From NCBI GenBank assembly GCA_021772835.1, contig JAJFLE010000080.1, positions 1-64,000 of the forward strand: DNA of 64,000 bases, written 5' to 3'. Under the pieces are notes generated by a model. The model was not told the origin of the DNA. It made no database searches and saw only the letters and a program-made list of their open reading frames with translations. The translations under genes were made by a program, and so were the position numbers. This document shows, piece by piece, positions 2 through 9,964 of the stretch; the first letter of the stretch is position 1; every line of letters starts with the position of its first letter. The DNA comes from Mariprofundus sp. (GTDB lineage Bacteria > Pseudomonadota > Zetaproteobacteria > Mariprofundales > Mariprofundaceae).

Positions 2-292
2 TGTTACGAGGAAACGCCGCCGCAGCTACTGCTTCCTGATAACAAATGGATCGGCTGCGCCGTCGCCTTTGTGCTGGCATCAGGTCAAACAGATCGTGAA
101 AATGCGGCGTGCATAAGCATGCCCTGCTGCGATCATGAAAAGTGCCCCACTCCGAATTACAGTGGACAATCGCCTGCTTTGGCCGCCTTACCGCTGCTCA
201 ATGCCGTTAAGCAAAACACTTCAGGCAGGATACAAATTTCGCCTGCAGGTGATAGCACATGGTTCATCGAACTCAATCAGCCGCATGGATAA
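2..292 (+). CDS. C-terminal end of a condensing-enzyme-like protein (partial)
   Basis: The frame is open from the left edge to a TAA at 290-292, giving the last 96 residues of a gene that starts outside the window. Its tail has a Leu/Ala-rich helix (SPALAALPLLNAV, fragment residues 57-69) followed by two short strands (RIQIS, WFIEL). This pattern resembles the end of the short ketosynthase-like proteins of aryl polyene clusters. The next gene starts 8 nt inside this one, so the two are translationally coupled. Assignment is by pattern and context only. No active-site residue lies in the fragment, so another function is possible. Confidence 0.45.
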   Translation, partial: CYEETPPQLLLPDNKWIGCAVAFVLASGQTDRENAACISMPCCDHEKCPTPNYSGQSPALAALPLLNAVKQNTSGRIQISPAGDSTWFIELNQPHG

Positions 293-1448: not shown

Positions 1449-2669
1449 ATGACTGCCAAATTTGATTACGATGTCATCATAGTCGGTGGTGGCCCTGCAG
1501 GCTCGACTGCAAGCACTCTGCTGGCACAAAAGGGGCATAAGGTTCTTTTGATTGATCGCGATCTTCATCCCCGCTTTCATATCGGCGAATCAATGTTGCC
1601 AATGAGTGAACCGGTATTTAAGCGGCTTGGTATCCACTGGGATGCGCAGGAATACTTAGCCAAGAATGGCGCCGAGTTTATCGATGAGGTTTCTGGCAGC
1701 AGCATTCGTTTTCCTTTTGCCGGTCAACATCAACCCTATCAGGTGGAACGCGCCAAGTTCGACCACATGATGATCAGCAATGCAGAGAAACATGGTGTCT
1801 CTGTGCATCAGCAGGAAGTGGTAAAAGATGTGAATTGCGATAAAGAGAAGGTCACTGTGCGCACCGACCAATCAACCTATTCTGCCAAATATCTGATTGA
1901 TGCCTCCGGCCGTAGCACCCTGATGGGCCGCCGCAACAACTCCATTCGCAGGATCGAAAACCTGGGCAAGTTCTCGCTGTATACGCACTACAAAGAGGTT
2001 AATGCCGAAGCGGCCGACATGCTGTTTGAAACTGGCGATGTGAAAATCATCATTGTCGATATCGGCTGGTTCTGGGTCATTCCGATGAGTGGACGCCGTC
2101 TCAGTGTTGGCCTGGTCGTACAAAAAGAGACAGAGGGACAGGCGCGCGGGCCATCACTGTTCGAGCGCTACTTCGAAGCCTCACCGCTGTTGACTGCCGC
2201 CCTTCAGGGAGCCGAACGTGAGTTTGGCATCAGGGCGGAAGCGGATTTCAGTTTCACCAATGAAGCGCGTCACGGCTTGCGTTATGCATGCTGCGGCGAT
2301 TCAGCCGGTTTCCTCGATCCTGTTTTTTCATCGGGTGTCTTTCTGGCCGTCAAAACTGCAGAAGCCGTTGCCGATCGACTGCATATAGCCCTAGTAGACG
2401 GATGCGAAGCAGAGGTGGGGCTTCACTCCGCTGGTGATGATGACTACCTGATCGGCTTTAACTCCATGCGTCTGTTTGTCGAGCGATTCTACCATGCCGG
2501 ATTGGTGCGCAATCTTTTTTTTGTTGCAGAGCGCAGCAAGGAATTGAAGGAGGATATCCTGGGCCTGCTTGCCGGAGATTTGTGGACAGGAACAAATGAT
2601 TTCCAGCACAAGTTGCTCAGAAGCAGACAGGCCAGGCAGTTGATGATCAAGCAGTCGAAGGAGAGCTAA
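1449..2669 (+). CDS. Flavin-dependent halogenase-like FAD oxidoreductase 1
   Basis: A 406-residue FAD protein of the tryptophan-halogenase superfamily. It has the FAD-binding GGGPAG (residues 13-18), FHIGES (43-48), the halogenase signature W-x-W-x-I-P as WFWVIP (207-212), and F-x-x-P-x-x-S-x-G as FLDPVFSSG (288-296). Lys72 in AKNGAEF lies where the catalytic lysine of RebH/PrnA-type enzymes is expected. It would halogenate a carrier-bound or free aromatic using reduced FAD, or act as a halogenase-related oxygenase as seen in aryl polyene clusters. The ATG at 1449 follows GAGAGGG and lies 16 nt after fabG. Its stop overlaps the convergent gene by 4 nt. Confidence 0.8.
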   Translation: MTAKFDYDVIIVGGGPAGSTASTLLAQKGHKVLLIDRDLHPRFHIGESMLPMSEPVFKRLGIHWDAQEYLAKNGAEFIDEVSGSSIRFPFAGQHQPYQVERAKFDHMMISNAEKHGVSVHQQEVVKDVNCDKEKVTVRTDQSTYSAKYLIDASGRSTLMGRRNNSIRRIENLGKFSLYTHYKEVNAEAADMLFETGDVKIIIVDIGWFWVIPMSGRRLSVGLVVQKETEGQARGPSLFERYFEASPLLTAALQGAEREFGIRAEADFSFTNEARHGLRYACCGDSAGFLDPVFSSGVFLAVKTAEAVADRLHIALVDGCEAEVGLHSAGDDDYLIGFNSMRLFVERFYHAGLVRNLFFVAERSKELKEDILGLLAGDLWTGTNDFQHKLLRSRQARQLMIKQSKES

Positions 2670-3487
2670 CGCATCACCTTCTCTTGTGAAGACCAGAAGC
2701 TCCAGGCGAAACCAATGCCGGTGGAAAGATAAAAGTTCTTACGTACCAGTGGGCTGTCAGCATTTACACCCGGGGCAAGCGTTCGCATGCGAACCACCAC
2801 ACCTATACTCAGATCTTCATCGTATTTATAGCGCAGTATTGTATCCAGGTAATAGCTGTGCAAACCTTTTTTCGCCACATATGCCGGACGGGTAGCCGTC
2901 GCATAGATCGGGTCGACACCGTAGTAGTTACGGTTAAATCGCTGCGAGGCGTAAAGCAGTCCACCCTCAAGTCTAAGCATTACCTTCTCAAGCTCCGGAA
3001 GAATGTCATAACGTTCATATCGCAGAGCTGGCTCTGTGACCCAACCGAGAAATGTCTGGCTGGTATCAACGGCTATACGGTATGGCAAATGCAGGCTTAA
3101 TTTATCTTCGTCACGATCTGTGATTACCCAGTTTAACTGCGGGCCTACCTGTCCGGTCAGGTGCAATGCCGGCATACCCTGGCGAGCATTATTGTTATTT
3201 TTTACCGGCAGGCCGAACGAAAAATCGAGATCCAGCGAAAGCCCGTTTGTCTCCAGCAAACGACCGCGAACACCGTCCCGATCTGCACGCAGAAATTCGC
3301 CGCGGTAAATCAAATAGGGCACAGCTAGTGGCAACGTATATCGCTGATCGCTGCCCACATAATGAGGCGTGGAGATAACAGCGCCAGCAAGGCCAATCTC
3401 CCAGAGCGGTTTCACTGTTTTTTCTCCGGCAATTACCGGATGAGTAAATCCCAGCAACAAGAGCATCAGTAATATGCGCATATTCAT
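2666..3487 (-). CDS. MipA/OmpV family outer-membrane protein
   Basis: A 273-residue protein with a signal peptide (MNMRILLMLLLLGFTHPVIAG) and a run of amphipathic beta strands typical of the MipA/OmpV barrel family. GLAGAVISTPHYVGSDQRYTL near the N-terminus is a characteristic opening. It should sit in the outer membrane. Family members have been linked to murein synthesis scaffolding and to outer-membrane transport, but its substrate here is unknown. Its ATG overlaps the stop of the upstream halogenase-like gene (ATGA), so it is made as the last product of the biosynthetic operon. A role in exporting or anchoring the product is inference. Confidence 0.82.
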   Translation of the reverse strand: MNMRILLMLLLLGFTHPVIAGEKTVKPLWEIGLAGAVISTPHYVGSDQRYTLPLAVPYLIYRGEFLRADRDGVRGRLLETNGLSLDLDFSFGLPVKNNNNARQGMPALHLTGQVGPQLNWVITDRDEDKLSLHLPYRIAVDTSQTFLGWVTEPALRYERYDILPELEKVMLRLEGGLLYASQRFNRNYYGVDPIYATATRPAYVAKKGLHSYYLDTILRYKYDEDLSIGVVVRMRTLAPGVNADSPLVRKNFYLSTGIGFAWSFWSSQEKVMR

Positions 3488-4668
3488 GCCATCGTCTCCC
3501 GTAAACGTGTCAGTCCAGGGCCTGGCTCCACCTCATAAATCCTGCCTGCAAATATTTCCAGAAACTCCTCGGGATAACGTTGATGCGCCATGTTGGCAAA
3601 ACCCCACGGGTAAGCCCAGAAATAAGAGAGTAGATCCTGAATGACATCCTGAGCCTGTGAAGTCACCTGCATATAATGATCATGGATTGGCTGCCAACCC
3701 TCATGCTGCTGTTGCGCGCATGCCGAGATGGCTTTAGCCACATATTCAGCCTCGACAACGGCAAACTGAACACCAAAGGAAAAAATCGGGTCGATAAACC
3801 GGTGACTGTCACCGACGCAGAAGAGCCCATCCCGACAATACTCGTCAATGGAGAAGGAGTAGTTTGAAGCTGCACGTACATCTCCAACCCGCTTTATTGC
3901 ATGTGCCCGCTGCTTCAGCGGTTCACTGAAGCAGCTTATGCTCTGCTCCAGAAACGCCTCCATACCAAGGCCGCTCTTTTTGTAATCTTCAACAGGCACC
4001 ACCAGTCCTATACTGCTAAGCGTATCACTTAGCGGAATCATCCAAATCCATTCATGGCGCTGGCGATGAAAAATCAGCGTATCATGGGCATCACTTTCAC
4101 CGCGTGTCACCCCCTCGAACTGACTGAAAAATGAGATCTGGCGCGCGTAATCACCCTCGACAGCCTCACCAAACAATCCACGTTTCTGGCTGAATCGCTG
4201 CTGGCCGCTGCCATCCACCACAAAGCGTGTGGCCAAGATTCTTTCTCCTTCATCGGTGCGCACCGTCACCTGCCAGCCGGTCCCATCACGGCAAAGTGAT
4301 GTGGCCCTTCCGCACAGGTGTTTAGCCCCGCGTTCAAGCGCCTGATCGAGCATCATCTTGTCGAAACCGGAGCGTTCGACTTGCCAGGCATCCCCCGCTC
4401 CGACAAAAAAACTGTTTTCCGGGTTTTTGGAAAATATACGAACCCCTTGTTTGCGTGGCGCAGCGAGTTCACGAAGCTGAGAGTCGAGCCCAAGTCTGTT
4501 GAGTGCATCTACACATTCTGTGGTTAATGATTCCCCGATATGAAATCGCGGAAAGCTTTCTTGCTCGACAATGATAGGTTGGAACCCTTCTCTAAGCAGA
4601 TTCATGGCACTGGCTGTTCCGGCAGGGCCGCCACCTATAACTAACACGTTTTCTTTCAACTTAGCCAA
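3484..4668 (-). CDS. Flavin-dependent halogenase-like FAD oxidoreductase 2 (PltA-like)
   Basis: A flavoprotein with GGGPAG (residues 12-17), FHIGES (42-47), WIWMIP (207-212) and FIDPIFSFG (291-299). Lys73 in RKQGVRIF lies at the expected catalytic lysine position, so all halogenase hallmarks are present. The open frame extends to 4881, deep into the upstream oxidase gene. I chose the TTG at 4668, preceded by AGGG at 8 nt, which gives 394 residues beginning just before the FAD fold; the TTG at 4659 is an alternative. Its place after ligase and oxidase genes suggests halogenation of a carrier-bound pyrrole, as PltA does (inference). It overlaps the next gene by 4 nt. Confidence 0.8.
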   Translation of the reverse strand: MAKLKENVLVIGGGPAGTASAMNLLREGFQPIIVEQESFPRFHIGESLTTECVDALNRLGLDSQLRELAAPRKQGVRIFSKNPENSFFVGAGDAWQVERSGFDKMMLDQALERGAKHLCGRATSLCRDGTGWQVTVRTDEGERILATRFVVDGSGQQRFSQKRGLFGEAVEGDYARQISFFSQFEGVTRGESDAHDTLIFHRQRHEWIWMIPLSDTLSSIGLVVPVEDYKKSGLGMEAFLEQSISCFSEPLKQRAHAIKRVGDVRAASNYSFSIDEYCRDGLFCVGDSHRFIDPIFSFGVQFAVVEAEYVAKAISACAQQQHEGWQPIHDHYMQVTSQAQDVIQDLLSYFWAYPWGFANMAHQRYPEEFLEIFAGRIYEVEPGPGLTRLRETMA

Positions 4669-4681
4669 CCCCAAATCCCTG

Positions 4682-5758
4682 TCAGCTACCCATACCAAGC
4701 ATGGCAGCAATAATGTTTTTCTGGATTTCGGTACTGCCTGAGAAGAGACGACCGGCCATGGCATCCTGAACCAGGGCGACATGTTCACCTTCAAGGCCAC
4801 GTGTGCCGAAAACCTGTACAGTATCAAGGCTTGAGCTGAGAAATGCCTCGCTCGCATACCACTTGGTCGCCGCACTCTCAACGGTAATGCGCTTATTTCT
4901 ATCGCAGTGATCGGCGCATTTGGCCACCCACAAACGCACTGTTTCCACTCTTAACTTCATCTCGGCAATACGGTGGCTGATTGCCTGATAATCCGACAGG
5001 GCACTGCCCTTCACCTGACGTGTTCGTGCAAAGCTGACTGCCTCATCAAGTTGCCACTGCATGACACCCGCAATACCTGAAAAGATGAAAGCGCGCTCAA
5101 GCTCCAGTGCCAGATGAATCATGATATTGCCCATGCCAGCTTTCCCGAGCAGACGATCTGATGGTATCAGGCAATCTGACAGATCGATGTCACCCATGGT
5201 CGCAGTCGCACAGCCCTGCACGGTCGGGCCGTCTGCAAAGCTCACCCCTAAATCATCATGAAACACAAGAAATGCGGAGATCGCACCCTCATATTTTGCA
5301 TAGACCACCAGCAGGTCGGCAATCGGTGTATTGGTGATGTAACGTTTGCATCCGTTGAGCACAAAACCATCACCTACGGCCACCGCACTTGCCTGCATGG
5401 CCTGCGTGTCGGAACCCGCTTGCGGCTCGGTGATAGCATGACCACCTATCCATTCGCCACTTACAAGCTTGGGTAGAAAATCCCTCTTCTGACTTTCGCT
5501 TCCGAAGCGGAGAAGCGGAAAAACAGCCCCCCAGATATGCGCGTTGGCCGCCAGAACCAGGCCGGGATCTCGTGTCTGTTTTCCAAGCAACTCATGATCA
5601 CGGCAAAGCTCTTCGAAGCTATCGCCCAGGCCTCCGAATTCTTTAGCAACGGCATGCCTGAACAGGCCAGCTTCGCCGCACTGTTTCAGCCGCCGTCTTG
5701 CCTCATCTGTGCTTTGACCCCTGGCAGGGCCTATCTCCGGAATATAATGACTACTCAA
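4682..5758 (-). CDS. Acyl-CoA dehydrogenase-like oxidase, probable aminoacyl-carrier dehydrogenase (PltE/RedW-like)
   Basis: A 358-residue acyl-CoA dehydrogenase fold protein. TEPQAGSD (110-117) and the C-terminal FGTRGLEGE and STEIQKNIIA segments bind FAD. The position that carries the catalytic Glu in medium-chain enzymes is Ser340 (FSGST). Glu221 in LELERAF aligns instead with the isovaleryl-CoA dehydrogenase base, the arrangement reported for prolyl-carrier oxidases such as PltE and RedW. Next to an amino-acid ligase and a carrier protein, the likely reaction is oxidation of prolyl-carrier to pyrrolyl-carrier. The start is a TTG preceded by AGGAGA, overlapping the ligase stop by 8 nt. Confidence 0.82.
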   Translation of the reverse strand: MSSHYIPEIGPARGQSTDEARRRLKQCGEAGLFRHAVAKEFGGLGDSFEELCRDHELLGKQTRDPGLVLAANAHIWGAVFPLLRFGSESQKRDFLPKLVSGEWIGGHAITEPQAGSDTQAMQASAVAVGDGFVLNGCKRYITNTPIADLLVVYAKYEGAISAFLVFHDDLGVSFADGPTVQGCATATMGDIDLSDCLIPSDRLLGKAGMGNIMIHLALELERAFIFSGIAGVMQWQLDEAVSFARTRQVKGSALSDYQAISHRIAEMKLRVETVRLWVAKCADHCDRNKRITVESAATKWYASEAFLSSSLDTVQVFGTRGLEGEHVALVQDAMAGRLFSGSTEIQKNIIAAMLGMGS

Positions 5759-7208
5759 CGTGTCTCTCCTGAATCATCCCTGCAACTGCCCGGTGATCCA
5801 CCTTGCCATTCGACAACAGTGGCAATGCGTCCAGCTGCACAAACCTGTAGGGCTGCATATAGGTAGCAAGATTCTGTTTCAGGTAAATCCGCAAGCCATC
5901 CAGCTCCACTCCCTGCCCCACCACTACTGCAACCAGTCGTTGCCCACTGATAGGATCGCTCTCACCGATGACCACCGAGCACTGGACCTGTTCGAAGCGA
6001 TTGATCACGACCTCGATTTCGGCTGGTTCGATACGGTAGCCTGAAGACTTGATCATACGATCCATACGTCCGAGGTAAAGTAACTCTCCCAGCTCATTGT
6101 ACGAAACCCGGTCACCGGTGTGATACCATGGGAAATCTACTGCCCGGACATCACCATTCTGCCAGTAGCCGCTCATCAGACATGGGCCACTGACCAGCAG
6201 TTCACCATCATCATTTATCATAAGTTCAGCGTTGCAGGCTGCACCGCCAATCGGGATAGTCTCCAGATCAGCGAGCCTGTGCCGCATCACTGGCCAGTAA
6301 GTGCACACATTGCTCTCGGTCGGGCCAAAAAGGTTATACAGCTCCACATCAGGCAGCGCATCGGCCAGTTTCATTAAACCTGGAAGTGGAAACACTTCGC
6401 CTGCGAACAGGATGCGTTTCATCCTCGGCAAGCGATCGGGGCCAAGCCTTCCGCGCATCGCCAGGAAAGCAAGCATAGCTGGTACAGTGTACCAGCTTGT
6501 AACGGCCATCTCTTCGAGCCAGGCAACCAGTTTGGCAGGAGATAATGTTAATGACTGCGGCACGAAACAGGTGTGTGCAGCACAGTGAACAGAGGTAAAC
6601 AGATCAAACAGGGAGAGGTCAAAATGAAAAGGGGCCAGTGCTGCAATGCGATCAGTATCGGTGATACCGAAAGTTGTGGATGACCAGACGACAAATGCAT
6701 CGATGGCGCGACAGCTGATGGCAACGCCCTTCGGATTCCCTGTCGAGCCCGAAGTATAGAGAATGGCTGCCAACTCTTCAGGGCCGGGGCGGTAGATTAC
6801 ATCGACATCCCCCTCTGGCTCATCTTCGAAAAATTCCGGATCATTGATATCGATCCACTCAACGGCACTGCTGCACCATTGGGGCCGCTCGCCATGACCT
6901 ATCATACAGCGTGGCTGCACATCGCCAATGATGAATGACAGCCGTAAGGCAGGGTTTTGCACATCCAGCGGCACATAACAGGCACCGGCGAAAAGCGTGC
7001 CGTAGATGCAGCATGCGGCATCAATGCCCCGGGCAAGCAACAGCGCTACCCGATCACCCGGCCTCACGCCATGATGCAACAATACATTTCTGATGCGCTC
7101 GGCATGTTCAAAAAGGCTGCGATAACTGACTTCCCTGCCATTTTCGCTGAAGGCAGTACGGCCAGGTTCGTAGAACTGATGCCTTAGCAGGCTGTCGATT
7201 ACTAACAT
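5751..7208 (-). CDS. Stand-alone amino-acid adenylation enzyme, probable L-prolyl-AMP ligase (PltF/PigI-like)
   Basis: A 485-residue ANL-family ligase, the usual size for free-standing prolyl ligases. Core motifs are present in order: YTSGSTGNPKG (151-161), FDLS (196-199), FGPTESN (294-300), YHTGDR (362-367), GRMDRMIK (380-387) and NGKVD (467-471, catalytic Lys469). Asp197 in the A4 motif matches the residue that holds the amino group of alpha-amino acids in adenylation domains. This favours an amino acid over a fatty or aryl acid. Proline as substrate is inferred from the neighbouring oxidase. The ATG lies 1 nt after the stop of the condensation-like gene. Confidence 0.85.
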   Translation of the reverse strand: MLVIDSLLRHQFYEPGRTAFSENGREVSYRSLFEHAERIRNVLLHHGVRPGDRVALLLARGIDAACCIYGTLFAGACYVPLDVQNPALRLSFIIGDVQPRCMIGHGERPQWCSSAVEWIDINDPEFFEDEPEGDVDVIYRPGPEELAAILYTSGSTGNPKGVAISCRAIDAFVVWSSTTFGITDTDRIAALAPFHFDLSLFDLFTSVHCAAHTCFVPQSLTLSPAKLVAWLEEMAVTSWYTVPAMLAFLAMRGRLGPDRLPRMKRILFAGEVFPLPGLMKLADALPDVELYNLFGPTESNVCTYWPVMRHRLADLETIPIGGAACNAELMINDDGELLVSGPCLMSGYWQNGDVRAVDFPWYHTGDRVSYNELGELLYLGRMDRMIKSSGYRIEPAEIEVVINRFEQVQCSVVIGESDPISGQRLVAVVVGQGVELDGLRIYLKQNLATYMQPYRFVQLDALPLLSNGKVDHRAVAGMIQERHVE

Positions 7209-7209
7209 G

Positions 7210-8487
7210 CTAAGCGGCTTCTTCGCCCTTCAACTCGGAAGCCATCAGGGTCGTCAGTGAATCGAGCCATTGTTGATCAATCTGACTCGCTACATAATTG
7301 AAACTCAATGTAATGGCACCGTTGTACTGGCTGACCAGCATACCAAGCGAAGGTGCTGCCGTGACCTGACTGAGCTGGAACATCGTGCTCACTTTCGCAC
7401 CGGCAATCTCCGTCACCTTAGGGTCGGGTTCACCGGTATACGAAAACCAGAACGAGCTGCGCTCCTGACCCTTGGGTGTATTGCGGATAATACGCCCGTA
7501 CTTCTCCAGCGGCAGCCAGCTGCCCGCTTCCATCAACGGCACCAGAGCATGATCGAGGCCTGAACGCACCGTTGCCTTGTACTGCTCGCGAAGGGCAGGG
7601 AAGAGCTGCTTGCGATCACGCACCTGTTCGAGCCGGGCTTGTGCAAAGAGGAAACTGACCTGATTGCCCAGCAGCGGGAACAGTGCTTTACGTTTGCGCA
7701 TATTCATGGCGTAAGGAACACAGAAGCCCTGCTTCTGCTCACATCCGGCGCGCTGCAGCGCACGCATCAGACAGCCGATAAAGTAGAGCGCAGTCCCCAT
7801 CATACCTGCTTCTTTCATGGCGCATGCCATAATCTGCTTTGAAACGTCGGCATCAAAGTGCACAACTTGAAATTTCAATCTGTCTGCAGCGACAGCTTTG
7901 GCCTGCGGTAATGAGCTCGAGATCTTGTCCATGTTATCGATATGGCGTTTGGCTCTGTACATCATACCTATCTTTTTCCAGAACCCCCACTTTGCCGTAA
8001 GCAGGGCGAAGGCATTTTCACCTTCTGCCGCTTCTTCATCGCTAAGCAGGTGATGAACAATGAGCTCAGCCCCCTTGGCATCGCAGATCGGATGAAACCA
8101 ACGCAACAGAAAGAAAGAACCCTCGGGCATATCGACCAAATGAAATACCACCGGTGCAACACTGTCGACAGGCATTGCGGCATTGATAATCTCACCGACA
8201 ATCTCAAGCCCGCTCTCCCTGTTCCCGGCAGTATGCCGAAAGAATAACGTTGTTTTTATTTCGCTATTGGCCTGCCAGTAGTAGCGCCGTCCTTTCTGCT
8301 TCAGCCTGACATTAATCTCAGGAAAGCGGGTGACAAATGTCCTGGCACGGCGCGCGAGCAACTCAGCATCAGGATTGCTGTCCAGCTCAAAAACCAGAGC
8401 GCAGAAGTTGCCGGACAGGCCTGATCCCCGGATCTCATGATCCATCATCAGGGTGAAATGATCCGCCGTATTTAGCGGTCGCTGCAT
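7210..8487 (-). CDS. Condensation/acyltransferase-like protein (HxxxD family)
   Basis: A 425-residue protein with the organisation of NRPS condensation domains and PapA/WS-DGAT acyltransferases. The key motif HPICDAKG (His132 to Asp136) corresponds to HxxxDG. The sequence opens with NTADHFTLMMD, typical of the family's first strand-helix element, and lies between the carrier protein and ligase genes. It could move the aminoacyl or pyrrolyl group from the carrier to a nucleophile or to the polyketide machinery. The substrate pair cannot be read from sequence. The second Gly is displaced (DAKG instead of DG), so an unusual or structural role is possible. AGGA lies 9 nt before the ATG. Confidence 0.65.
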   Translation of the reverse strand: MQRPLNTADHFTLMMDHEIRGSGLSGNFCALVFELDSNPDAELLARRARTFVTRFPEINVRLKQKGRRYYWQANSEIKTTLFFRHTAGNRESGLEIVGEIINAAMPVDSVAPVVFHLVDMPEGSFFLLRWFHPICDAKGAELIVHHLLSDEEAAEGENAFALLTAKWGFWKKIGMMYRAKRHIDNMDKISSSLPQAKAVAADRLKFQVVHFDADVSKQIMACAMKEAGMMGTALYFIGCLMRALQRAGCEQKQGFCVPYAMNMRKRKALFPLLGNQVSFLFAQARLEQVRDRKQLFPALREQYKATVRSGLDHALVPLMEAGSWLPLEKYGRIIRNTPKGQERSSFWFSYTGEPDPKVTEIAGAKVSTMFQLSQVTAAPSLGMLVSQYNGAITLSFNYVASQIDQQWLDSLTTLMASELKGEEAA

Positions 8488-8504: not shown

Positions 8505-8738
8505 TCAGCGATGCCGCTCAATCCAGCTGCTGATCCTGTTCAGCGTCTGGATATTATCCGGCTCAATCTCCTCATCGGGCAATGTAACGCCAAATTTCTC
8601 CTCAATGAATAATACCAACCGCATGATTCCCATACTGTCCAGCCCCGCCTCAAGCAGATCACCGTCTCCGGAGAATAACTCTGCATCAGGTATGTGAACC
8701 AGTTCCTGGAAAATAAAAATTTTGAGTTCATCGTTCAT
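8505..8738 (-). CDS. Acyl/peptidyl carrier protein
   Basis: A 77-residue four-helix carrier protein. The phosphopantetheine attachment site is Ser35 in GLDSMGIMRL, the D-S-[ML] motif that opens helix 2. Acidic helix 2 and 3 surfaces (FIEEKFG, PDEEIEPD) are typical. It should carry the amino acid activated by the downstream ligase and present it to the oxidase and halogenase. GGAG lies 8 nt before the ATG. It is the first gene of a minus-strand operon that continues to 2666. Confidence 0.88.
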   Translation of the reverse strand: MNDELKIFIFQELVHIPDAELFSGDGDLLEAGLDSMGIMRLVLFIEEKFGVTLPDEEIEPDNIQTLNRISSWIERHR

Positions 8739-8857: not shown

Positions 8858-9406
8858 ATGGTTAAAAGACTGGGTTTGTTTGCGCTGCTGTGCGCTATTT
8901 TCATCGGAAATGCTCAAGTACCACTGGCTGCAGGCCTGAAAGGGAAAACGCTTTTCACACAGGTTAATATCTACAGCCTGAAGGGGAAATCAGTAACATG
9001 GGTGAATTACCAGGTCGATTCGCTCATTCCGGTAAATACCGAAGTTACGATCAACTATGCAGGAAAATCGGGTGTAGGCTTCACTATAAAGGCGACCGAC
9101 CAAAAGCTGGAGTTAAATAACAAGAAGCGTCATTCCGGCTTGGATGGCAATGCATGGGCTGCTAAACACTTCGGCGAGCAGAAGGTCGACCTGAGTAGAT
9201 TCACGAAAGCTGAACGTGATGCAATCCATGCGGCAAAGGTGGAGGCAGGCATGAGCAAGGATGCAGTTCTTGTCTCCCGCGGCTATCCACCTGCGCATAA
9301 AACACCAGACCTGAATGCATCGGAGTGGCTCTACTGGCACAATCGCTGGAATAAAAAAGCGGTCACCTTTGATGCCAATGGCAAAGTTTCAGCCATAAGA
9401 GAGTGA
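8858..9406 (+). CDS. Exported protein with a BamE/SmpA-like C-terminal segment
   Basis: A 182-residue protein with a clear signal peptide (MVKRLGLFALLCAIFIGNAQVPLAA), so it is periplasmic or cell-surface. The C-terminal part has the pattern G-M-S-K-D-A-V, R-G-Y-P-P, W-L-Y-W and V-T-F-D-A-N-G-K-V. This is the order of elements in small BamE/SmpA-type folds (a turn before a helix, G-x-P, aromatic strand, final strand). The N-terminal half (VNYQVDSLIPVNTEVTIN) looks like short beta strands. Function unknown. It is the first of three consecutive exported proteins on this strand, each with its own gap, so not certainly an operon. Confidence 0.75.
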   Translation: MVKRLGLFALLCAIFIGNAQVPLAAGLKGKTLFTQVNIYSLKGKSVTWVNYQVDSLIPVNTEVTINYAGKSGVGFTIKATDQKLELNNKKRHSGLDGNAWAAKHFGEQKVDLSRFTKAERDAIHAAKVEAGMSKDAVLVSRGYPPAHKTPDLNASEWLYWHNRWNKKAVTFDANGKVSAIRE

Positions 9407-9520: not shown

Positions 9521-9964
9521 ATGAATGTATGGACTAAAATGGTGCTGGTGCTGATAGCACTGGGCACGTTTGCCAGCGTGGCGGAAGCAAGAAAAGATAT
9601 TGGTGACTACGCGATCAAGGATGCCCTTTCACGCAGTGACGGGCAGGAAAGGCTGAGAGATGACATTGCGCTCTATTTCGGATCACAAAAACACCCGAAA
9701 GCCATAAAGTCATTCGGCGAGTTTTCTACAAACAAAAAGACCAATGCATTTAACAAATCCGATAAAATGGCATGTGAGTGGGTATTCCTGTCTGCCATTA
9801 TCCAGCTACAAAAAAAAGCAAGCGACTTAGGTGGCAACGCCGTGATTAACATCAAGTCTAACTATGGCCGGATCGAAACATCCGACACCAAAACGTTCAA
9901 GTGTGCGGCTGGCAACATTGTTGCCGGAGTTGCCCTGAAAGGGACTGTAGTAAAAACAGAGTAA
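9521..9964 (+). CDS. Small exported conserved protein of unknown function
   Basis: A 147-residue protein with a signal peptide ending near VAEA. The mature part contains FGEFSTNKKTNAFNKSD, then CEWVFLSAIIQLQKKA and GGNAVINIKS, and a Gly-rich end (AAGNIVAGVALKGTVV). I recognise this as a widespread family often mislabelled as an excinuclease subunit, with no nuclease or ATPase motif. The two mature cysteines (CEW and KCAAG) could form a disulfide. GGNAVINI resembles the core of YbjQ/YdgH-like small beta proteins. The ATG is preceded by AAGGGG at 7 nt. Role unknown. Confidence 0.75.
   Translation: MNVWTKMVLVLIALGTFASVAEARKDIGDYAIKDALSRSDGQERLRDDIALYFGSQKHPKAIKSFGEFSTNKKTNAFNKSDKMACEWVFLSAIIQLQKKASDLGGNAVINIKSNYGRIETSDTKTFKCAAGNIVAGVALKGTVVKTE

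Follow-up and report, generated by a model that had tools for sequence, protein, structure and literature searches.

Aryl polyenes (APEs) are among the most widespread bacterial pigments. The available text of a report on the E. coli and Xenorhabdus clusters describes ApeC/O/P/Q/H/I/L/M-type genes, with ApeH reported to adenylate 4-hydroxybenzoate and to load an ACP in APE synthesis (PMC8253772), and the accessible portion of another lists a halogenase and a MltA-interacting protein for the Azoarcus arcuflavin cluster (PMC3949708). OaaC, a free-standing condensation enzyme of fatty acid amide synthesis in Coprococcus eutactus, operates with a single adenylating enzyme and a single ACP, coupling fatty acyl-ACP to aminovalerate; its clade has a (D/H)HxxxDS-type motif with Ser and Ala enriched after the Asp, according to the available sections of the report (PMC13142362). 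In the aminocoumarin pathways, as the accessible parts of two reports describe them, a ligase, a carrier and an oxidase supply a proline-derived pyrrole-2-carbonyl group, which CloN2 hands to a second carrier, while CouN7 and CloN7 participate in moving it to the acceptor, which in clorobiocin is a sugar hydroxyl (PMC11218499, PMC8748450).

The DNA analysed here (the window, a stretch of 64,000 nucleotides from Mariprofundus sp.) encodes a stand-alone condensation-like enzyme, termed COND, whose neighbourhood resembles each of these systems in part. By analogy, the best reading is that the COND system would couple an architecture like that of OaaC with a donor like that of the aminocoumarins, as an attachment to an APE pathway. 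To our knowledge CloN2, CloN7 and CouN7 are not condensation-fold enzymes, and CouN7 is of the alpha/beta-hydrolase type. As with OaaC, a free-standing condensation fold, an adenylating enzyme and an ACP are encoded together, and the second motif His and the Asp are conserved with a following residue that is usually not Gly; unlike the COND system, OaaC in the available text uses a fatty acyl donor and a free amine acceptor, and is encoded in a set of three genes without an oxidase or halogenase (PMC13142362). The proline-derived pyrrole-2-carbonyl donor is the feature shared with the aminocoumarins, whereas their acceptor, in the portions available, is a deoxysugar on the antibiotic (PMC11218499, PMC8748450). 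The ape-type genes are shared with E. coli and Xenorhabdus, and with Azoarcus the halogenase and the MltA-interacting protein (compare the MipA-type gene below), but a carrier/condensation/proline cassette was not found in the available text on these clusters (PMC8253772, PMC3949708). Within the open-licence literature, we found no report of an APE combined with a pyrrole and a halogenase or with a pyrrole-2-carboxyl group, nor of an APE with a stand-alone ester-forming condensation domain, and nothing on APEs in Zetaproteobacteria or on an APE with a prolyl carrier protein.

Gene content and conservation of the COND cassette

COND is encoded on the minus strand at positions 7210–8487 (425 aa, ATG start) as a single-domain ORF that, within the window, lies outside any NRPS module. 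The original prediction of a stand-alone condensation-like protein between carrier and ligase genes, with no NRPS present, holds for the window, where COND models as a condensation/CAT fold and none of the eight ORFs of at least 600 aa is NRPS-like (translations judged by eye). Upstream, across a gap of 18 nt, lies the gene for a small carrier protein of acyl/peptidyl type (8505–8738, minus strand; 77 aa) with a DSMG phosphopantetheine site, and downstream, after 2 nt, that for a PltF-type proline:carrier ligase (5751–7208, minus strand), whose pocket letters from the alignment, DLFYLALVC, we take to be the proline code of PltF-type ligases. Next is a predicted pyrrole maker (4682–5758, minus strand), an acyl-CoA-dehydrogenase-type oxidase of the PltE/RedW/PigA kind whose best matches are the prolyl-carrier oxidases RedW (NCBIfam, 271.7 bits) and PigA (264.2 bits), below the curated cut-offs of 650 and 500, respectively. 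With that qualification for the oxidase, all three genes of a candidate pyrrole-2-carboxyl cassette (proline-type ligase, carrier with DSMG, oxidase) are in the window. The flavin-dependent halogenase Hal2 (3484–4881, minus strand; GxGxxG and WIWMIP motifs) is co-directional with this cassette, its true start probably lying near 4659 as judged by homologue length, and is followed by a MipA-type outer-membrane protein (2666–3487, minus strand).

The gene order carrier-COND-ligase-oxidase is kept in seven other genomes with COND homologues of 81 to 44% identity, and the locus is therefore more than a chance arrangement. COND was found in 6/78 genomes of its own order, in 5/369 genomes of a class sample around (and including) G079, and in 41/121 genomes around (and including) G328, where the 41 include fragments or split frames in G801, G815, G819 and G859. 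A COND profile search of 398 Pseudomonadota genomes gave matches only in six of its own order, a further scan yielded seven loci (five from own-order genomes already met, one from Thiohalobacter and one from a Chromatiales MAG; L017 and L018), and the plasmid records searched gave no match. From around G328, 40 of 48 match rows were taken as loci, together with L055 from G328 itself; the seven match rows left out were two each of G801 and G859 and one each of G815, G819 and G848.

Across the resulting 52 loci (the window, L007–L011, L017, L018, L055–L058 and L095–L134), every one has the carrier gene immediately upstream of COND, 48 by ORF comparison and four (L115, L119, L124, L127) by tblastn, which was used there because the COND ORF overruns its likely start. 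This includes the distant loci L057, which has a different ligase, and L058, which ends at a contig edge (both about 23–27% identity). Because the adjacency is unbroken, a dependence of COND on its neighbouring carrier is supported at the level of gene order. Among the 44 pyrrole-type loci, a proline-type ligase (at least 42% identity) adjoins COND in 41, the exceptions being L100, L108 and L111, and the oxidase is present in 37, with two of the seven that lack it (L099, L103) hitting contig ends. No PltE-type oxidase was found in the six D-type loci (L129–L134). The ligase there has a pocket without the amino-group-binding Asp (L129, L130, L132, L134), Pfam recognises an FAD oxidoreductase immediately after COND in L133 and, in L134, separating COND from the ligase, and L129 has an ORF similar to it by eye; each of the six has a halogenase-like gene beside the carrier gene, an additional 309-aa ORF intervening in L133.

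Fold and family placement of COND

The AlphaFold2 model of COND from the 41 sequences of alignment A4 (pLDDT 93.1, pTM 0.93), which superseded an earlier one from eight sequences (pLDDT 73), exhibits the two-lobed condensation/CAT fold. Comparison with solved structures by VIA-align (best 50 rows, those no more than 1 Z unit apart counted as tied) gave AzeD of Pseudomonas aeruginosa (PDB 8s6l) as the best among the matches listed, at Z 34.2 over 408/425 residues (3.3 Å), about 5 Z units ahead of the next structure (34.2 vs 29.3) and ranked top with both COND models. Although AzeD is the closest solved fold among those matches and has the same domain arrangement, its identity with COND is 13%, and it is titled a dehydratase, its function being known here from the PDB title alone. 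The CDA condensation domain C1 (Z 29.3, 391 residues, 3.6 Å), the RzmA starter condensation domain (Z 28.1, 383 residues, 3.7 Å), TRI3 (Z 27.1, 396 residues, 3.4 Å), WS/DGAT (Z 26.8, 338 residues, 3.9 Å), PapA5 (Z 26.7, 354 residues, 3.4 Å) and SgcC5 (Z 24.1, 389 residues, 4.2 Å) also matched, and the comparison with PapA5, WS/DGAT and a starter condensation domain suggested earlier returned similar folds. VibH was not among the best 50 matches listed, which is uninformative on kinship.

The sequence WFHPICDAKG occupies residues 130–139 of COND, and within it HPICDAKG (residues 132–139) contains H132 and D136. The earlier assignment of a catalytic-type His to this motif is upheld by alignment, in that H132 and D136, as well as A137 and G139, are invariant in 41/41 sequences of A4 and H132 aligns with the catalytic His of both condensation domains and WS/DGAT in profile comparisons. 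In the model the motif would sit in its usual place, as judged by fold, secondary structure and aligned motifs, which is not the outcome of a fold lacking the central His channel. Set against HHxxxDG, the window COND reads F-H-xxx-D-A, with the second His and the Asp present and the first His and the Gly absent; position 131 is His in 6/41 rows and position 137 is Ala in 41/41. The full HH pair occurs in five D-type rows and in one pyrrole-type row (L112), which ties the COND family to the HHxxxDG superfamily. A midpoint-rooted maximum-likelihood tree of the 41 rows sets the D type and the long-branch L057 apart from all 35 pyrrole-type rows.

Profile-profile comparison matched A4 to 17 condensation domains (E 6.7e-11, 384 columns) and to 14 WS/DGAT proteins (E 5.3e-11, 407 columns); the latter two sets matched each other at E 1.5e-8 over 241 columns, and the unrelated control, ApeC, gave a probability of 0.1 against A4. 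Since the COND profile is equally close to both, the family is, as placed by these profiles, a separate branch outside both NRPS condensation domains and WS/DGAT, and apparently one undescribed so far in the condensation superfamily. The clustering with lipid acyltransferases that the original prediction had considered was likewise not the outcome, COND being no closer to them than to condensation domains.

Family searches gave a similar picture. No Pfam family matches the window COND protein, and the PapA family is absent from the Pfam matches of COND and its homologues. PF00668 gave no match in the COND-positive genomes G079 and G107 and only one away from COND in G138, while a D-type relative of COND reached 19.1 bits, below the cut-off of 30.6. 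The WS/DGAT model TIGR02946 matched COND weakly at its C-terminal end (17.6 bits, E 0.0014; cut-off 309.95), and PF03007 matched one of eight COND homologues weakly (E 0.01) and had no match in G079, G107 or G138. Assignments of COND to the NRPS condensation domains and to WS/DGAT were each rejected, as no curated cut-off was reached for either and the profile of the other family matches equally well. A single COND sequence found nothing up to E 10 among the sequences of solved structures, and COND profiles found there only a weak match to a heterocyclization domain (best E 0.024 and 0.23), together with the longer BmdB constructs of that domain and some unrelated rows.

The aryl polyene arm

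The window starts at a contig end, and the other half of the polyketide cluster is found where contig C82 of the same genome ends, an ApeC-like gene being split between them with residues 1–155 at the end of C82 and residues 156–249 at window positions 2–283 (plus strand; KS2, a chain-length factor of ApeC type, here reduced to its C-terminal piece by the contig break). Also on the plus strand are an ApeP-like dehydratase (135–713; PF22817 at 28.4 bits, exceeding the cut-off of 27), an ApeQ/FabG-like ketoreductase (710–1432) and the flavin-dependent halogenase Hal1 (1410–2669; GxGxxG and WFWVIP motifs), which we place with the polyene arm. Contig C82 carries ACP2, a COG4648-type membrane protein, an ApeH-like ligase, ApeI, a glycosyltransferase, an LpxL-like acyltransferase, a thioesterase, LolA, an MMPL exporter and an ApeO-like ketosynthase; a GalE-like epimerase accompanies the glycosyltransferase within the cluster. 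In this genome the APE genes are spread over contigs C82 and C78, whereas in the relative G048 the whole set is on one contig. Because ApeC/ApeO ketosynthases, ApeP/ApeI dehydratases, ApeQ, an ApeH ligase, LolA and an MMPL-type exporter are present, the polyketide arm linked to COND is, on gene content, an APE cluster.

The APE ketosynthase pair was present in 8/8 COND genomes tested. Within the order, the ApeC marker was found in 8/78 genomes, six with COND and two without (G015, 88% complete; G020, 56% complete), giving a Fisher p of 1.1e-7 for co-occurrence with shared ancestry ignored; the G020 cluster runs from the starter carrier to the ketoreductase with MipA and an acyltransferase, and neither a halogenase nor a pyrrole cassette was recognised in it. 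Around G328, ApeC occurred in 40/41 genomes with COND against 33/80 without (Fisher p 1.4e-10, shared ancestry again ignored), a control that is weakened because many of the ApeC matches in the COND-negative relatives are partial. In G774, which has COND without an ApeC match, KS1, ketoreductase and dehydratase genes adjoin COND.

The COND cassette can lie apart from the APE genes. Polyene genes and cassette are on separate contigs in G066, G078 and G079, and a generic acyltransferase apart, no ape genes were recognised within about 9 kb on each side of L104, L107 and L109, or around L114, mostly on one side with 1 kb on the other. The neighbours of L104 read by eye as SecG, TpiA and GlmM.

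Proposed role of COND and its alternatives

In the mechanism that we propose, PltF would load L-proline onto the neighbouring carrier, PltE would oxidise the carrier-bound prolyl group to pyrrole-2-carbonyl, and Hal2, where present, would halogenate it; COND, with H132 as general base, would then take the acyl group off the carrier and pass it to a nucleophile, for which a hydroxyl on the APE pigment or its lipid anchor, for example on the aryl head group, is the likeliest candidate, to yield an ester-decorated APE. The cassette would be an add-on to a complete APE pathway rather than a starter module. We consider it probable that COND moves an acyl group off its own carrier. That the acceptor is a hydroxyl of the APE product has nearly even odds in our judgement, and the reading as a whole, in which COND is a carrier-dependent acyltransferase that attaches a pyrrole-2-carbonyl group, probably halogenated, to an APE pigment as a decoration, we hold as a tentative preference, its reaction and acceptor, like the direction and timing of the acyl transfer and the halogenation state, being what we infer. 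Against this reading, no reported products from these organisms were found, and among the pyrrole-type loci three have no proline-type ligase beside COND and seven no oxidase.

Pyrrolyl-carriers serve as polyketide starters in the prodigiosin, pyoluteorin and DKxanthene pathways, and the CAT fold can carry out thiol-to-thiol acyl transfer, as in dihydrolipoyl acetyltransferases. Together with the co-occurrence of COND and the APE arm, these precedents favour a starter hand-over, in which COND would move the pyrrolyl group to an APE carrier or ketosynthase and the polyene would be built on a pyrrole head instead of 4-hydroxybenzoate. If pyrrole replaced the aryl starter, however, loss of ApeH would be expected more often than was seen. 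In 12 aligned ApeH-like ligases, ten of them from COND-positive genomes, core motifs A3, A5 and A8 are intact throughout (12/12); because these had been picked after an ApeH match, a profile recheck was made. The ApeH profile matches in 12 genomes with COND (G000, G048, G059, G073, G079, G138, G773, G843, G848, G853, G856 and G874, the last as a contig-end fragment) and, among those without COND, in G015 and G020, and had no match in several of the APE stretches examined, e.g. L106, L115–L119 and L126. Among 20 further stretches from 12 genomes, an ApeH-type ligase was found in ten genomes (G328, G808, G813, G820, G830, G842, G847, G858, G864, G873) at 229 to 415 bits, against 45 to 93 bits for PltF-type ligases with this profile. 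An ApeH-type ligase thus accompanies COND in 22 genomes; it was not seen in the stretches examined of G794 and G884 or in the one contig examined of G868, which speaks for the hand-over, the count covering these 22 + 3 COND-positive genomes.

Five genomes (G790, G826, G848, G856 and G874, the second G848 copy by score only) hold two COND types, and four of the five have a single ApeC match; such a pairing of types with different donors within one genome is easily understood as decoration and fits a starter role poorly. As ketosynthases in known pathways take the pyrrolyl group straight from its carrier, a transferase would also be superfluous for priming. Use of the pyrrole as a polyketide starter via COND is therefore disfavoured, and we regard it as unlikely. 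The original prediction, which had COND pass the pyrrolyl group to the polyketide side as the link between two arms, stands as regards the tie to the APE arm (8/8 genomes; 40/41 against 33/80) and is not supported as regards the starter role, given ApeH in the 22 genomes. Retention of ApeH is itself no proof that the ApeH product and the pyrrole share one molecule.

The probability left by the decoration and starter readings is shared among an amide former, chemistry like that of AzeD, an acyltransferase dependent on CoA and possibilities not listed here. An amide former, with COND joining the pyrrolyl group to a free amine (the amino sugar of an APE lipid, or a small amine) in the manner of OaaC, would fit the three-part architecture described in the available text on that enzyme (PMC13142362) and the GalE-like epimerase and glycosyltransferase of the cluster, but nothing amine-specific was recognised among the cassette genes and the likeness to OaaC is one of architecture and motif description; we judge it improbable. 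Many related condensation enzymes form amides, which counts against an ester product. Non-transfer chemistry on the carrier-bound acyl group, such as dehydration, would follow from the top rank of AzeD by about 5 Z units with both models, yet we give it very little weight, as in known systems the oxidase alone suffices for prolyl-to-pyrrolyl conversion, there is no evident hydroxyl to eliminate, the APE arm has its own ApeI/ApeP-type dehydratases and identity with AzeD is so low. The dehydratase title of this nearest solved structure counts, too, against decoration. PapA5 and WS/DGAT have ester-forming chemistry, the former moving acyl groups from a carrier or PKS to a lipid diol and the latter using acyl-CoA with an alcohol or diacylglycerol, and share with COND the fold and the HxxxD catalytic motif. 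A lipid acyltransferase that depends on CoA, like wax ester/DGAT enzymes or PapA5, and merely lies beside a carrier gene could account for the weak C-terminal TIGR02946 match, the Z scores of both proteins and a WS/DGAT profile match equal to that of condensation domains, but it is most improbable given the absence of a curated family match, a profile no closer to WS/DGAT than to condensation domains, and the dedicated carrier directly upstream in 52/52 loci, distant ones included.

A wider form of the decoration reading, possible but held with more reserve, is that COND represents a third branch of the condensation/WS-DGAT superfamily devoted to carrier-fed APE decoration, with the carrier-COND pair constant and the donor genes swapped, proline ligase and oxidase for the pyrrole type and acid ligase, FAD oxidoreductase and halogenase for the D type. 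If so, multiply acylated, halogenated hybrid pigments would be made by iron oxidisers and other proteobacteria. Decoration by the window cassette, if true, would amount to a new hybrid pigment class, in which a modular gene set attaches a pyrrole made from proline and probably halogenated, and would give a free-standing enzyme of condensation-like type a new function. With a compact acyltransferase of one domain that has a carrier of its own, donor and acceptor selection in the superfamily would also become directly testable.

The position of the halogenases bears on the group transferred. In G066, G078 and G079 Hal1 comes after the polyene ketoreductase, to which it is also close in G048, and Hal2 comes after the pyrrole oxidase; this suggests one halogenase per arm, Hal1 for the polyene and Hal2 for the pyrrole. 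Hal2 is absent from the cassette in G066 and G078, so halogenation of the pyrrole looks optional.

Aryl polyene gene sets

The aryl polyene (APE) gene cluster is split by an assembly break inside the gene for the ApeC-like chain-length factor, one part of which lies at positions 1-283 of the window while the remaining half forms the end of another contig of the same genome (C82; locus L044). Five genomes (G830, G808, G847, G864 and G873; loci L181, L184, L186, L199 and L200) each seem to carry a second APE-type gene set, consisting of a halogenase-like gene, two ketosynthase genes and an ApeC-like gene, adjoined by an ApeH-type aryl starter ligase gene; four of these genomes also have a ketoreductase gene labelled in the set. 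The distance between this set and the cassette of the condensation-like enzyme (7210-8487, minus strand) is no more than about 20 kb in G830, G808 and G847.

Other carrier and condensation cassettes

A second kind of carrier/condensation cassette, the D type, was found at six loci (L129-L134), some of them located in or near APE clusters, and occurs together with the pyrrole type in five genomes. Its ligase is of the acid type, with no Asp for amino-group binding in the pocket (read in L129, L130, L132 and L134), and the cassette also includes a halogenase and an FAD oxidoreductase (the latter matched by Pfam in L133 and L134 and judged by eye in L129).

More remote carrier-condensation pairs are present in L057 and in L058, which stops at a contig edge, and PltE was not recognised in either locus. 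The pair in L057 is followed by a different ligase and a 684-amino-acid ORF that, judged by eye, may encode an ABC transporter, a gene order which suggests a different exported, acylated product.

Accessory genes

Next to the pyrrole cassette in L110, L111 and L112, and next to the polyene-arm halogenase gene (Hal1) in L040, lies a second glycosyltransferase-like gene of family 2; the acceptor may thereby be hinted to be a sugar. Two relatives (L105 and L107) have a class I methyltransferase gene immediately after the pyrrole oxidase gene; its product perhaps methylates the pyrrole, by analogy with CloN6, which performs this methylation in clorobiocin synthesis.

Two genes for small proteins with signal-like N-termini, as judged by eye (8858-9406 and 9521-9964), recur in several genomes alongside either the cassette or the APE cluster: 8858-like genes are present in L049, L056, L117, L118 and L134, and a 9521-like gene immediately precedes the carrier gene in L017.
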